A stretch of 64,000 nucleotides of DNA from Acidobacteriota bacterium (GTDB lineage: Bacteria > Acidobacteriota > Terriglobia > Terriglobales > Acidobacteriaceae): NCBI GenBank assembly GCA_013289765.1, contig JABCZI010000008.1, positions 186,001 through 250,000 on the forward strand, in the 5' to 3' direction. Positions 59,401 through 63,300 of the stretch are shown one piece after another (position 1 is the first letter of the stretch; every line of letters starts with the position of its first letter). Both the position numbers and the translations under genes were made by a program. The notes below the pieces were generated by a model. It made no database searches and had not been told where the DNA came from. It saw nothing but the letters and a program-made list of their open reading frames with translations.

Positions 59401-59548
59401 GTTCACCTCGTGAAACAAGAGTGTACTGATCGGCGGCGCTGAGAACAAATTCGAGTTACTACTTGCGCACGATCGAGGATCTTCTTGACGAAGAACCCTC
59501 GGCGTTGTACGATTGTTGACAAGTTTGCTCTTCGGGGCAGACTTGGAA

Positions 59549-59660
59549 TTTCATGCAGAGTGGCTGAGGGACGAGCCCTGTGACGCCACGGCAACCGGAT
59601 CGGGATCATATATCCTGACCGCCAGGTGCCAACTCCCGCCCGGAAACGGGGAACATGAGA
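59549..59660 (+). ncRNA. SAM-I (S-box) riboswitch aptamer
   Basis: Aptamer core reads P1 TCATG (59551-59555), GAGTGGCTGAGGGACGAGCC, CTGTGACGCCACGGCAACC, a P3 arm, CAGGTGCCAACTCCC, P4 CCCG-GAAA-CGGG, then closing CATGA (59654-59658). The invariants GAGGGA, GGCAACC and GGTGCCAA-TCC match the S-box consensus. A TTGACA (59516-59521) lies ~30 bases upstream. A terminator follows at 59695-59735, so SAM binding should prevent read-through into the thrC-like gene at 59792. The 59401-59791 gap is fully explained by promoter, aptamer and terminator. Confidence 0.93.
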
Positions 59661-59694
59661 TTCGGATGCGAAGCTTATTTGTATTGCATTCCGA

Positions 59695-59735
59695 CCTCTT
59701 TTCCCATTTCCTGGAAAAAGAGGCCTTTGTTTTTT
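59695..59735 (+). terminator. SAM-riboswitch expression platform terminator
   Basis: CCTCTTTTCC (59695-59704) pairs with GGAAAAAGAGG (59713-59723) with one bulge, followed by CCTTTGTTTTTT. It sits between the aptamer and the thrC-like start. Confidence 0.8.
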
Positions 59736-59791
59736 AGGGCGCTCCCGGCTCGTCCCAGCGACTCGCTGCTTGAATAGAAAGCGAGTACCCG

Positions 59792-61102
59792 ATGTCGAAT
59801 TACAACGCCCACTACGAATTACGCTGCCGGGAATGCGGACGAAGTTGGGGCAACCAGCCCCGCTCGATCTGCGATGAGTGTTTCTCTCCTCTGGAAATTA
59901 CCTACGATTATGAAGCGCTTCGCCCGTCGGTTACCCGCGAAAGCATTGCGCAACGCGCGCCCAACATGTGGCGCTATTCCGAATTGCTGCCTCTACCCGA
60001 AGGGTTCGAGCCTCGGTTGCCGGTTGGGTTTACGCCGCTGTTCCAGGCGCCTCGTCTGGCGGAGCAATGGTTCGGGAATACGAACGACGCGAAAACGGTT
60101 GCGCAGAATCTCTATCTCAAGAATGATGCCGTGTGCTTGCCGACGCTGAGTTTTAAAGACCGCGTGGTGGCGGTTGCGCTGGCGAATGCGCAAGCTTTTG
60201 GATTCGATACGGTCGCATGTTCTTCGACCGGCAACCTGGCGAACGCGGTCGCAGCCCATGCCGCGCGTCTGGGTCTTAAAGCGTGGATATTTATCCCTTC
60301 CGATCTTGAGCCGGCAAAAATTCTCGGCACGCAAGTGTTCGGCGCAAACGTGGTGCGCATCGCGGGTAACTATGACCAGGTGAATCGCCTGTGCTCGCAA
60401 ATTGCCGAAGAGCGCCGCTGGGGCTTCGTCAACGTGAACCTGCGGCCGTATTACGCCGAGGGATCGAAGACGGTCGGCTTCGAGATCGCCGAGCAACTGG
60501 GCTGGCGCTTGCCGGACAATGTCGTCGTGCCAATGGCAGGGGGGTCGTTGATTACTAAAATCAAAAAAGCTTTTGATGAACTCACGAAGCTTGGCCTGGT
60601 TGAGGAAAAGCCAGTAAAGTTCTTCGGCGCGCAGGCTACGGGATGCTCTCCGATATCGACGGCGGTGAAGACTGGCAGCGCGGAGATAGATCCACAGAAA
60701 CCCGCGACGATTGCGCGGTCGCTTGCCATCGGCAATCCTGCCGACGGCCACTACGCCATTAAGACCATCAAGCAGAGCGGGGGATGGAGCGAGGATGTGA
60801 GCGATCCGGAGGTAATTGATTCGATCCGGCTGCTGGCGGCGACCGAAGGCATCTTCACCGAAACCGCTGGCGGCGTCACCGTGGGTACGGCGGGAAAACT
60901 TTATCGCCAGGACCGCATTCTGCCTGAGGAAACGACCGTGCTCTGCATCACCGGCAACGGCCTGAAGACAACCGATGTGCTGGCGGGAGTGTATGAAATC
61001 GAAAGGCCCATCGCTCCCAAGCTTGCAGAATTCGAAAAGTACTTGCAGGACACGCTAGAGAGTGTTGGCGTGGTGAGAGAAGCGGCGACGGTGGGCGTGT
61101 AG
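59792..61102 (+). CDS. thrC: Threonine-synthase-like PLP enzyme, SAM-riboswitch controlled
   Basis: A 436-residue fold-type II PLP enzyme. The N-terminal Cys motifs CRECG (~11) and CDEC (~28) form a zinc-ribbon-like start; PLP Lys is in LPTLSFKDRVVAVALANA and the phosphate loop in CSSTGNLANAVAAHAARLG. The C-terminus has ETAGGVTVGTAG and VLCITGNGLKTTDV. This matches threonine synthase, which acts on O-phosphohomoserine. Control by a SAM-I riboswitch and a CysO-like carrier 47 bases downstream point instead to sulfur or methionine metabolism; homocysteine formation from O-phosphohomoserine is one hypothesis. A plain threonine synthase cannot be excluded. Confidence 0.85.
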   Translation: MSNYNAHYELRCRECGRSWGNQPRSICDECFSPLEITYDYEALRPSVTRESIAQRAPNMWRYSELLPLPEGFEPRLPVGFTPLFQAPRLAEQWFGNTNDAKTVAQNLYLKNDAVCLPTLSFKDRVVAVALANAQAFGFDTVACSSTGNLANAVAAHAARLGLKAWIFIPSDLEPAKILGTQVFGANVVRIAGNYDQVNRLCSQIAEERRWGFVNVNLRPYYAEGSKTVGFEIAEQLGWRLPDNVVVPMAGGSLITKIKKAFDELTKLGLVEEKPVKFFGAQATGCSPISTAVKTGSAEIDPQKPATIARSLAIGNPADGHYAIKTIKQSGGWSEDVSDPEVIDSIRLLAATEGIFTETAGGVTVGTAGKLYRQDRILPEETTVLCITGNGLKTTDVLAGVYEIERPIAPKLAEFEKYLQDTLESVGVVREAATVGV

Positions 61103-61149
61103 ACGGTGCATAGGTTTGAAAGGGCGCGGCTTAGCCGCTGAGGTTCGAT

Positions 61150-61431
61150 ATGGCAATTACGGTACAAATTCCGACCGCACTGCGACGGCACACCGCAGGC
61201 GTAGGTTCGATCGCCTGTGCCGCCACCAATTTGGGAGAACTGTTCACCGCCCTCGATGAAAAGTTTCCGGAATTAAAACCTCACCTGCGCGATGAAACTG
61301 GCCAGGTCCGCCGCTTTCTTAACATTTACGTGAATGAAGAGGACATCCGCTTCCTGGGAGGACCCAGCTATGCCTTCCAGGATGGCGATGAAGTACTGCT
61401 GGTGCCGTCGATTGCCGGCGGCGCGGTTTAG
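61150..61431 (+). CDS. CysO/MoaD/ThiS-like sulfur carrier protein
   Basis: A 93-residue ubiquitin-fold sulfur carrier. It opens ITVQIPTALRRHT and contains FLNIYVNEEDIRFLGG, then DGDEVLLVPSIAGGAV. The middle and end closely follow mycobacterial CysO (IYVN-ED-RF, DGD-V). Carriers end in Gly-Gly for thiocarboxylate formation; here two residues (Ala-Val) follow the GG, so a protease must expose it or it is inactive. GAGG lies six bases before the ATG. Its immediate partner is the SAM-regulated thrC-like gene, not cysM. No JAMM protease or E1-like gene is in the window. Confidence 0.9.
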   Translation: MAITVQIPTALRRHTAGVGSIACAATNLGELFTALDEKFPELKPHLRDETGQVRRFLNIYVNEEDIRFLGGPSYAFQDGDEVLLVPSIAGGAV

Positions 61432-61507: not shown

Positions 61508-62203
61508 ATGCCTCAACTCTTGCGCTCTTCCAAACCCCATCCCCGCCTCGGCTCGCGCGGCAAGCCGGAAGAAAGCCGCGCCGCGATTCTTTCGGCCGCG
61601 GCCAAAGAGTTCTCCGAGCACGGGATTGCCGGTGCCCGCACCGACGCGATTGCTCGCGCAGCGCATGTGAATAAGGCTTTGCTCTATTACTACTTCAAAG
61701 ACAAGGAAACACTTTACGGCGCAGTATTGGACAACGCCTTTTTCGGGATGAAGGAAAAAGTCTTCGCGGTGCTCGATAGCGATTTGCCTCCGCGAGAGAA
61801 GATTCTGGCCTATGCAGGCACGTACTTCGATTTCATCGCCTCCAATCCTCTCTATCCAAAACTGATGCAGCGGGAAATGATGCGCGCGCGGGAAGGCCAC
61901 CCCGAGCACATCGACCGGCTGGTCAAGACATATTTTCAACCCATCTATGGCCGTGTCGGCGAGTTGATTCGCAAAGGAATTGCGGAAGGCGAATTTCGCA
62001 AGGTCGATCCGGCTCACTTCGTTCCGTCAATGCTGGCCATTATCATTTTCTATTTCAGCAGCGCTCCCGTAATGCAGCGGATCGTGCGTTTCAATCCGCT
62101 GGCTCCGGAACGTATTGCCGAACGGCGCGCCGCGGTGCTCGACTTTATTTCCCACGCATTATTTCAGTCCCCCTTCCACACAACGCCAGGAGTACCCAAA
62201 TGA
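61508..62203 (+). CDS. TetR-family transcriptional regulator
   Basis: A 231-residue regulator. The HTH is at ~20-68: SRAAILSAAAKEFSEHGI, ARTDAIARAAHVNKALLYYYFKDKETLY. The ligand domain contains PREKILAYAGTYFDFI and QREMMRAREGHPEHIDRLV. The start is the ATG at 61508; the first ~18 residues (PQLLRSSKPHPRLGSRG) are a basic extension. Its stop overlaps the ATG of the efflux adaptor (ATGA), so it is part of and probably represses the efflux operon through the palindrome at 61487. Confidence 0.92.
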   Translation: MPQLLRSSKPHPRLGSRGKPEESRAAILSAAAKEFSEHGIAGARTDAIARAAHVNKALLYYYFKDKETLYGAVLDNAFFGMKEKVFAVLDSDLPPREKILAYAGTYFDFIASNPLYPKLMQREMMRAREGHPEHIDRLVKTYFQPIYGRVGELIRKGIAEGEFRKVDPAHFVPSMLAIIIFYFSSAPVMQRIVRFNPLAPERIAERRAAVLDFISHALFQSPFHTTPGVPK

Positions 62204-63300
62204 GTGCTCGCAACCGATTTTTCATTCTTCTCAGCATAATTTTTGTGATTGCCGCGACGTATTACTTTTTCTCCACCGACCATTCTCAAGACCTGGTGCT
62301 GATCGGTACCGTCGACTCCAATCAGGTGATTGTCAGCGCTCAGGTGGAAGGACGCATCCAGAAATTGATGGTGGATGAAGGCACGCCGGTGAAGGCTGGT
62401 GACTTGATCGCCGTGCTCGACCCGTCTGAGCTACAGACGCAGGAGGCCGCGGCGTCAGCGACCATCGCCAGCTTGCAGCACAAAGTTTCCGAAATGCAGC
62501 ACACCGAGCGGTCAACTTCTGGCTCGACTTCGAGCGACGTCGCGAATGCGCAGGCGAAAGTGTCATCGGCGAAAGCGCAGTTGATGCAAGCCAAGGCCAC
62601 GCTTGATCGCACGGAGAGCGACAGCCGGCGCGCGGTCGAACTGGCGAAGGCTGGCGTGGCTTCCGACCAGGAGCGAGTGCAGGCGGAAACCAACCTTCAG
62701 GCTGCTGAGGCGACCATGCAAGCTCAGCAAGAATTGGTAAAGGCGGCGCAGGCGGATCTGAACTCCGCGATCGCCCGCACGCAGCAGGCGAACGCCGCGC
62801 GGAGCACTGTGCAATCGACGCGAGCTGATCTTACAAACGCTATTGCACAGAAGAATCAAGCCGCGGTGCGGTTGGGCTATACGAATGTATATGCGCCTGT
62901 TACCGGCACCGTTTCTGTGCGAGCGGCGCGGCAAGGTGAAGTGGTGAATATTGGCGCGCCGATCGTAACCATCGTCGATCTCACGGACACATGGGCGAGG
63001 GTCGCAATTCCGGAGACTTATGCCGACCACATCGGCTATGGTGATGTGCTGCGAATTCGCCTGCCGGGCGGGACCATTACGAACGGAAAAGTATTTTTCA
63101 AAGGGGTGGAAGGCGATTTTGCCACCCAGCGCGATGTGAGCCGCCGCAAGCGGGATATCAAGACGATCGTACTAAAAGTGCGGCTGGATAATCCCAAGGG
63201 CGCGTTCGTGCCGGGAATGACGGCCGAAGTGCTGGTTTCTCCGGCGCAGACGAAGGGCGATGCGGCCTCGCGGAGTACTGCAGCAGCGGGGCAGCGATGA
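62200..63300 (+). CDS. HlyD-family efflux periplasmic adaptor
   Basis: A 366-residue membrane-fusion protein. One N-terminal helix (FFILLSIIFVIAATYYFF), a biotinyl-lipoyl-like half (VSAQVEGRIQKLMVDEGTPV), a long coiled coil (~75-215, Ala/Gln/Glu-rich) and the second lipoyl half and beta barrel (YTNVYAPVTGTVSVRAARQG, VLRIRLPGG). It resembles YbhG/EmrA-type adaptors linking an ABC exporter to an outer-membrane channel. It overlaps tetR and the ABC ATPase by 4 bases each. Confidence 0.93.
   Translation: MSARNRFFILLSIIFVIAATYYFFSTDHSQDLVLIGTVDSNQVIVSAQVEGRIQKLMVDEGTPVKAGDLIAVLDPSELQTQEAAASATIASLQHKVSEMQHTERSTSGSTSSDVANAQAKVSSAKAQLMQAKATLDRTESDSRRAVELAKAGVASDQERVQAETNLQAAEATMQAQQELVKAAQADLNSAIARTQQANAARSTVQSTRADLTNAIAQKNQAAVRLGYTNVYAPVTGTVSVRAARQGEVVNIGAPIVTIVDLTDTWARVAIPETYADHIGYGDVLRIRLPGGTITNGKVFFKGVEGDFATQRDVSRRKRDIKTIVLKVRLDNPKGAFVPGMTAEVLVSPAQTKGDAASRSTAAAGQR

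Follow-up and report, generated by a model that had tools for sequence, protein, structure and literature searches.

A SAM-I riboswitch, a threonine synthase paralogue and a sulfur carrier gene in Acidobacteriota: a probable metM-metO operon for homocysteine synthesis

The riboswitch, enzyme and carrier at the locus

We analyzed a 64,000-nucleotide stretch of DNA from an Acidobacteriota bacterium of the class Terriglobia (contig JABCZI010000008.1 of assembly GCA_013289765.1, positions 186,001 to 250,000; referred to as the window), in which an S-adenosylmethionine (SAM) riboswitch is followed on the forward strand by a gene resembling threonine synthase (ThrC) and by a gene for a small sulfur carrier protein. 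An earlier reading, made without database searches (the sequence-only reading), had proposed that a ThrC paralogue here uses O-phosphohomoserine and a carrier thiocarboxylate to make homocysteine. That mechanism was reached independently; the route is already in print as MetM/MetO (Hasebe and colleagues, 2024, as cited in PMC12172450), and the proposal fits what is described there. Judged from sequence, the locus is very probably an acidobacterial metM-metO operon under SAM feedback control, making homocysteine for methionine.

The Rfam model RF00162 for the SAM-I (S-box) riboswitch matches positions 59548 to 59661 (+ strand) from end to end with 74.0 bits (E 1.8e-15), well above its gathering threshold of 44.4 bits, and bears out an aptamer that had been placed by eye at 59549-59660. 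No further SAM-I match was found, either in the rest of the window or in the whole 4.8 Mb genome (97.6% complete). The predicted intrinsic terminator of the expression platform, at 59695-59735 (+ strand), is likewise upheld by folding: a hairpin at 59695-59723 is followed by the T-rich run CCTTTGTTTTTT up to 59735, and the stretch 59690-59740, which includes the terminator, has a folding energy of -15.0 kcal/mol. When 59548-59745 is folded, both aptamer and terminator form; when 59640-59740 is folded, with most of the aptamer omitted, the minimum free energy structure pairs the 3' sequence of the aptamer with the left arm of the terminator. This alternative pairing suggests the usual OFF-switch layout. 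The open reading frame (ORF) of the enzyme starts 131 positions past the last aptamer base.

That ORF (59792-61102, + strand; 436 amino acids) belongs to family PF00291 and scores 257.6 bits against the threonine synthase model TIGR00260 (cut-off 167.1), as its early description as threonine synthase-like would lead one to expect; its closest solved structures are threonine synthases, 1uim first. We nevertheless predict it to be an O-phosphohomoserine:carrier-thiocarboxylate homocysteine synthase (MetM), with K122 as the presumed lysine for pyridoxal 5'-phosphate (PLP). In a tree of 37 sequences, 28 of them MetM (a protein from the actinobacterium Nonomuraea included) and six ThrC, a branch supported at 100/99 splits the MetM rows from all others, and the six ThrC are likewise set apart, in agreement with the anticipated separation of proteins of this kind. 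The host's own ThrC on contig C10 pairs with the Priestia thrC, and its ThrC-like protein on contig C1 with a Chlorohelix protein. The Nonomuraea protein joins the MetM rows through a long branch; because the tree program warns of long branches, joins among long-branch rows (Nonomuraea included) are uncertain.

An alignment of 154 MetM proteins (the window's and 153 of 155 others, many of them closely related) with six ThrC distinguishes the two kinds further. Two proteins below the length limit (L092 and L191) and a fragment (G007) were left out, an X residue in the L038 sequence was deleted, and near-identical sequences were kept. K122, the PLP lysine of the motif SFKDR, is conserved throughout the alignment. 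Twenty-one residues are constant in at least 95% of the 154 MetM, occur in Nonomuraea too and are absent from all six ThrC: P33, V125, L149, L172, E173, V197, N198, C201, G211, N216, R218, Y221, S225, A249, K256, D318, G319, D335, T358, G361 and T393. N216, R218 and Y221 fall in the VNxN..EGxKT region, and several of the signature positions presumably lie in the region that holds the substrate phosphate in ThrC. Rather than grouping with ThrC and sharing its residues, the window's protein is thus a ThrC-family PLP enzyme distinct from the threonine synthase of the cell.

The carrier gene (61150-61431, + strand) begins after a spacer of 47 nucleotides (nt), as noted before, and encodes a MetO-like protein of 93 amino acids of the ThiS family. 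Its likeness to CysO is confirmed by its best matches in the Protein Data Bank (PDB), which are 3dwg_C, from the CysO/CysM entry (E 3.2e-20), and 4n6e_B (E 2.4e-17). The protein ends SIAGGAV, two residues beyond Gly-Gly. Carriers of both types were read at 133 of 157 loci, Nonomuraea included (24 loci yielded none); the reading rule recognized no Gly-Gly end in six of the 133, which were omitted (one of these, L052, does end AGGAE). Of the 127 remaining, 115 carry a tail of 1-28 residues after Gly-Gly, variable in sequence and exactly two residues long in 69, and 12, the Nonomuraea carrier among them, end at Gly-Gly. The longest tails include one of 28 residues, rich in cysteine (L111), and one of 20 (L119). 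E1 enzymes require a free Gly-Gly; most acidobacterial MetO must therefore be trimmed first, and the tail would by inference imply trimming by a JAMM protease.

Homocysteine genes in the host genome and across the class

The host genome encodes two further ThrC-like proteins, neither with a SAM-I switch. The second thrC that the sequence-only reading called for is on C10 (TIGR00260, 281.7 bits), with the homoserine kinase gene thrB directly after it; the other, on C1, is an NF006050-type protein. The methionine synthase gene metH is present on C3. In this genome neither MetX (best match 23.7 bits) nor MetA was found, nor HcyBio (PF01837), so that the host appears to have no acyl-homoserine route; since the genome is 97.6% complete, these absences are strong but not final. 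The expectation that metB, metY and metX would all be missing accordingly holds for metX and leaves a remainder, namely two full-length PF01053 proteins of uncertain role. For neither is a cut-off reached in its list of 25 top families: they score 362 and 350 bits against the O-acetylhomoserine sulfhydrylase model TIGR01326 (cut-off 495), and 431 and 344 bits against the cystathionine gamma-synthase model TIGR02080 (cut-off 505). The copy on C3 scores highest against a cystathionine gamma-lyase/homocysteine desulfhydrase family, without reaching its cut-off, and this gene adjoins a CysK/CBS-like gene, a reverse-transsulfuration layout.

The JAMM protease and E1-like genes that had been expected near the operon are both present, on C2 instead. 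There, within 9 kb, lie a second carrier gene with a MoeB/MoeZ-type ThiF-rhodanese E1 beside it and, some 5 kb from these, a CysM-like gene directly before the genome's single JAMM match. Further carriers are encoded elsewhere in the genome. The parts that would trim the carrier occur once and may need to be shared, with further E1 genes not searched for.

We then considered 121 genomes of the class with a completeness of 90% or more, among them that of the window. Matches of at least 427 bits were counted as MetM, together with a contig-end fragment (G063), the next best being ThrC-like at no more than 254 bits; matches of at least 346 bits were counted as MetX, together with a 177-bit contig fragment (G109), those of 163 bits or less appearing paralogous. 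MetM occurs in 78 genomes, MetX in 31 and MetA in four (MetX or MetA in 33), and the genomes divide into 74 with MetM only, 29 with MetX/MetA only, four with both and 14 with neither (Fisher p 2.3e-13 for the exclusion, uncorrected for phylogeny). In the window's family (27 genomes), 22 have MetM (one as a fragment), four in two genera have MetX (G009, G043, G067 and G091), none has both and one has neither (G105). Each of the family's 22 MetM genomes has a separate ThrC, as do, counting those of the C10 type at E<=1e-70, 63 of the 78 of the class. JAMM proteins occur in all 121 genomes, and their presence is therefore not discriminating. In 54 of the 78, a SAM-I switch precedes the MetM match by 97-266 nt on the same strand; class riboswitch counts are lower bounds, given the stricter filters used.

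A contig scan with one genome per species gave 80 named loci, all of them acidobacterial or from Terriglobia, whose enzymes are 65-91% identical. A carrier ORF accompanies the ThrC-like gene in 75 of them, at 1.5 kb further on in L092 and partly masked in L059 and L101; none was found in L044, L048, L073 and L088, and the L074 sequence stops 5 nt past the gene. In L080 (5995-7590), MetM and MetO share a single ORF of 531 amino acids, which is either a natural fusion or an assembly frameshift. All 11 loci submitted to Rfam matched the riboswitch. A covariance model built from the window's switch and ten of these loci finds it upstream in 70 of the 80 (two weakly, L028 and L057; 10 of the 70 built the model); of the 10 loci without a match, five have less than 300 nt of upstream sequence. 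The recurrence of the same order in relatives indicates that the arrangement of riboswitch, ThrC-like gene and carrier is not due to chance. Outside the phylum, Nonomuraea gerenzanensis has a MetM that is 52.7% identical, with a SAM-I switch before it (68.7 bits) and a carrier (36% identical) beginning 88 nt past the end of the MetM match.

Among the stretches around MetM in the 78 genomes (the window included; they vary in length, contig ends truncating some), a carrier is nearby in 55, a ThrB-like gene in 17 and a ThiF-type E1 in 10. Two of the ThrB-like neighbors were scanned and pass the homoserine kinase cut-off (TIGR00191; 237 and 236 bits, compared with 168), and these neighbors are candidates for the maker of the proposed substrate, O-phosphohomoserine. 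The order at L088 is riboswitch, MetM, ThrB, ThrC, which puts MetM in the same gene row as a true ThrC.

Known carrier systems, proposed mechanism and competing explanations

Hasebe and colleagues reportedly found in 2024 that MetM and thiocarboxylated MetO turn O-phosphohomoserine into homocysteine, and the pair is said to occur in other bacteria and archaea as well. A further paper credits them with identifying Streptomyces MetM as a homocysteine synthase with homologues in cyanobacteria, places a SAM riboswitch upstream of metM in S. albulus, and likens to S. albulus metO a Microcystis gene that adjoins thrC and bears a sulfur carrier annotation (PMC12172450). The window's operon matches this description in its ThrC-like enzyme, adjoining carrier gene, upstream SAM riboswitch and predicted substrate, O-phosphohomoserine, and we therefore take the window to show a probable member of that kind. 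It differs in its acidobacterial host, in the tail that follows Gly-Gly in most acidobacterial carriers read, and in that its genome's E1 and JAMM genes share a region with a CysM-like gene. Microcystis aeruginosa PCC7806 has a MetM homologue (51.6% to S. albulus MetM) with an adjoining carrier-like gene, but is described in the same text as having no SAM riboswitch there (PMC12172450), whereas the window, like S. albulus, has one.

The other carrier systems fit less well. Mycobacterium tuberculosis CysO/CysM passes thiocarboxylate sulfur to a phosphorylated amino acid (PMC12910592; PDB 3dwg). The window's carrier is of the CysO type, but its PLP partner is ThrC-like and its predicted product homocysteine, not cysteine; with the CysM-like gene elsewhere, on C2, we rejected a CysO/CysM cysteine operon. 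According to work attributed to Krishnamoorthy and Begley in 2011, Wolinella succinogenes is said to make homocysteine on a carrier with HcyS, HcyD, HcyF and MetY, where a metalloprotease reportedly removes the residue after Gly-Gly of HcyS and the PLP enzyme MetY uses O-acetylhomoserine. HcyS, as described, and the window's carrier both extend past Gly-Gly; a Wolinella-type system was rejected, as the window's partner is of family PF00291, not a PF01053 MetY. The DUF39/HcyBio route was rejected on the failure to find PF01837 in the host genome. At least one homocysteine route was still to be discovered, according to a 2018 paper (PMC5764234). Our literature search, which was weak on subscription papers, found among the titles and abstract openings listed no account of MetM in Acidobacteria and, beyond PMC12172450, none of the SAM-I/ThrC pair.

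In the mechanism that we propose, low SAM would allow transcription to pass the terminator; the structure of the switch is backed by the model match and the folds. MetO would be made as a precursor ending Gly-Gly-Ala-Val, which the single JAMM protease would trim to Gly-Gly, and the E1-like ThiF and rhodanese protein, whose gene is present, would adenylate and thiocarboxylate the carrier. By analogy with MetM/MetO, CysM/CysO and HcyS, MetM would take O-phosphohomoserine from ThrB, remove the phosphate by means of PLP and add the sulfur of the carrier thiocarboxylate at C-gamma. The product would be carrier-bound and then free homocysteine, with release perhaps by the JAMM protease; MetH would make methionine and hence SAM, which would shut the operon, and the separate thrC would make threonine.

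Several observations count against this interpretation. The likeness to S. albulus MetM is drawn from its description in PMC12172450, where the Microcystis homologue is reported as a threonine synthase/deaminase. The window's enzyme itself scores above the threonine synthase cut-off, and in 15 of the 78 MetM genomes there is no separate C10-type ThrC at E<=1e-70, so that MetM might also make threonine there. Twenty-four of the 78 have no riboswitch just upstream of MetM, and 23 stretches show no carrier near it, some of them cut by contig ends. The exclusion of MetM and MetX is uncorrected for phylogeny across families, and the 14 genomes with neither indicate that another route exists in the class or that genes were missed. 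The PF01053 protein on C3 comes near a cystathionine gamma-synthase model (NF005871; 491.5 bits, compared with a cut-off of 513). Finally, of 17 further SAM-I switches found away from MetM in the class sample, five precede a PF01053 enzyme (L143-L146 and L148), one an aspartate-kinase-like gene without a carrier (L153) and two a MoxR-like ATPase ORF (L150 and L151); the targets of L147 and L149 (G113 and G077) could not be named, and one, on C198 of G101, was unread.

Some of these points are also what one would expect if metM were an ordinary second threonine synthase gene, under SAM control since threonine and methionine share O-phosphohomoserine, with the carrier a chance or cofactor-related neighbor: the family score, the conserved PLP lysine and the 15 genomes without a C10-type ThrC all fit. 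We consider this very improbable, given that the host already has thrC-thrB, that a separate ThrC accompanies MetM throughout the family, that L088 holds MetM, ThrB and ThrC in a row, and that 21 residues differ from all six ThrC compared; SAM-I control, the rarity of MetM where MetX/MetA is present and the nearby carrier in 55 of 78 stretches speak the same way. A different enzyme could supply the homocysteine, namely a PF01053 protein acting on O-phosphohomoserine in the manner of the plant cystathionine gamma-synthase, leaving metM-metO to make another product. The near-threshold score of one of the two full-length PF01053 proteins favors this, as do five MetM-less genomes of another family in which a SAM-I switch precedes a PF01053 gene whose product is 47-49% identical to the C3 copy; yet the C3 copy has a reverse-transsulfuration neighbor, a lyase/desulfhydrase family as its best (below cut-off) match and no riboswitch, the genome's only SAM-I switch found being on metM, and we find this explanation highly doubtful.

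The role of the carrier is where we would concede somewhat more, although it is still improbable that MetM makes homocysteine from O-phosphohomoserine and free sulfide, with MetO a helper and not the obligatory sulfur donor. The 23 stretches without a nearby carrier are in keeping with this, and the riboswitch-MetM-MetY-MetX loci of G027 and G080 are among them; against it, a carrier accompanies MetM in 75 of 80 named loci and is preceded by a SAM-I switch of its own in three genomes, and carriers encoded elsewhere, such as the further ones of the host genome, could serve where none is nearby.

If the locus is a metM-metO operon, it would explain methionine synthesis without metX or metA in many genomes of a large, mostly uncultured soil group, a route hidden by automatic annotation as threonine synthase. 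Our analysis adds regulatory and phyletic evidence for MetM/MetO and offers candidate residues and genomic settings by which MetM could be told apart from ThrC in other genomes; relative to PMC12172450, it contributes the distribution in Acidobacteriota, the mutual exclusion with MetX, the residue signature, the carrier tail and a wider set of genes under SAM-I switches. A broader reading joins three statements, and as a whole we hold it tentatively, as somewhat short of an even chance: that most Terriglobia make homocysteine, and maybe cysteine too, only on a protein carrier, with MetO/MetM and CysO-like/CysM sharing one E1 and one JAMM protease, for which the host genome gives a hint; that MetO is an inactive precursor with a tail after Gly-Gly, so that JAMM would both activate the carrier and release homocysteine; and that in some lineages the carrier with aspartate kinase, or cysteine desulfurase with E1, lies under further SAM-I switches, so that SAM would control sulfur loading.

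Further SAM-I switches and neighboring genes

The genes behind the 17 further SAM-I switches were named by sequence family, and 12 of the switches precede methionine-family, aspartate-family or sulfur-transfer genes. Three lie before a carrier (MetO) and an aspartate kinase gene (L152, L155 and L156); an ORF at L152:14157-17489, taken by eye as MetH-like, was dropped when Pfam gave a Sortilin-Vps10 match. Three others lie before a cysteine-desulfurase-type gene (L154, L157 and L158), which in L154 is SufS, with E1 and cysteine synthase next, and which in L157 and L158 is NifS-like, below the NifS cut-off, with cysK next in L157.

The five genomes with a switch before a PF01053 gene all belong to family f6, and no MetM, MetX or MetA was found in them. 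The order at L148 is amino-acid kinase, PF01053, semialdehyde dehydrogenase, and these loci possibly represent a transsulfuration route using O-phosphohomoserine. At L140 (G027:C10:9500-18000) and L141 (G080:C237:17000-26500), riboswitch, MetM, MetY and MetX are followed by ThrB, with no carrier there (the MetY and MetX families were scanned in L140 only); at these loci, either two routes to homocysteine coexist or MetM has taken on another role.

The switch at L150 and L151 (G097 and G100; 65 bits) stands just before an AAA_5/MoxR-like ATPase ORF, an unusual target; a large ORF lies beyond it in both, with a VWA_CoxE match in L151 only, and L149, from a congener, has a SAM-I switch of 60 bits. 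Acido-Lenti-1 RNA (RF01687) matches within L045, L058 and L082, some kilobases from MetM. Downstream of the operon in the window, at 61508-63300 and beyond on the same strand, genes named by eye as a TetR-like regulator, HlyD-like and then ABC-transporter-like look unrelated to it.

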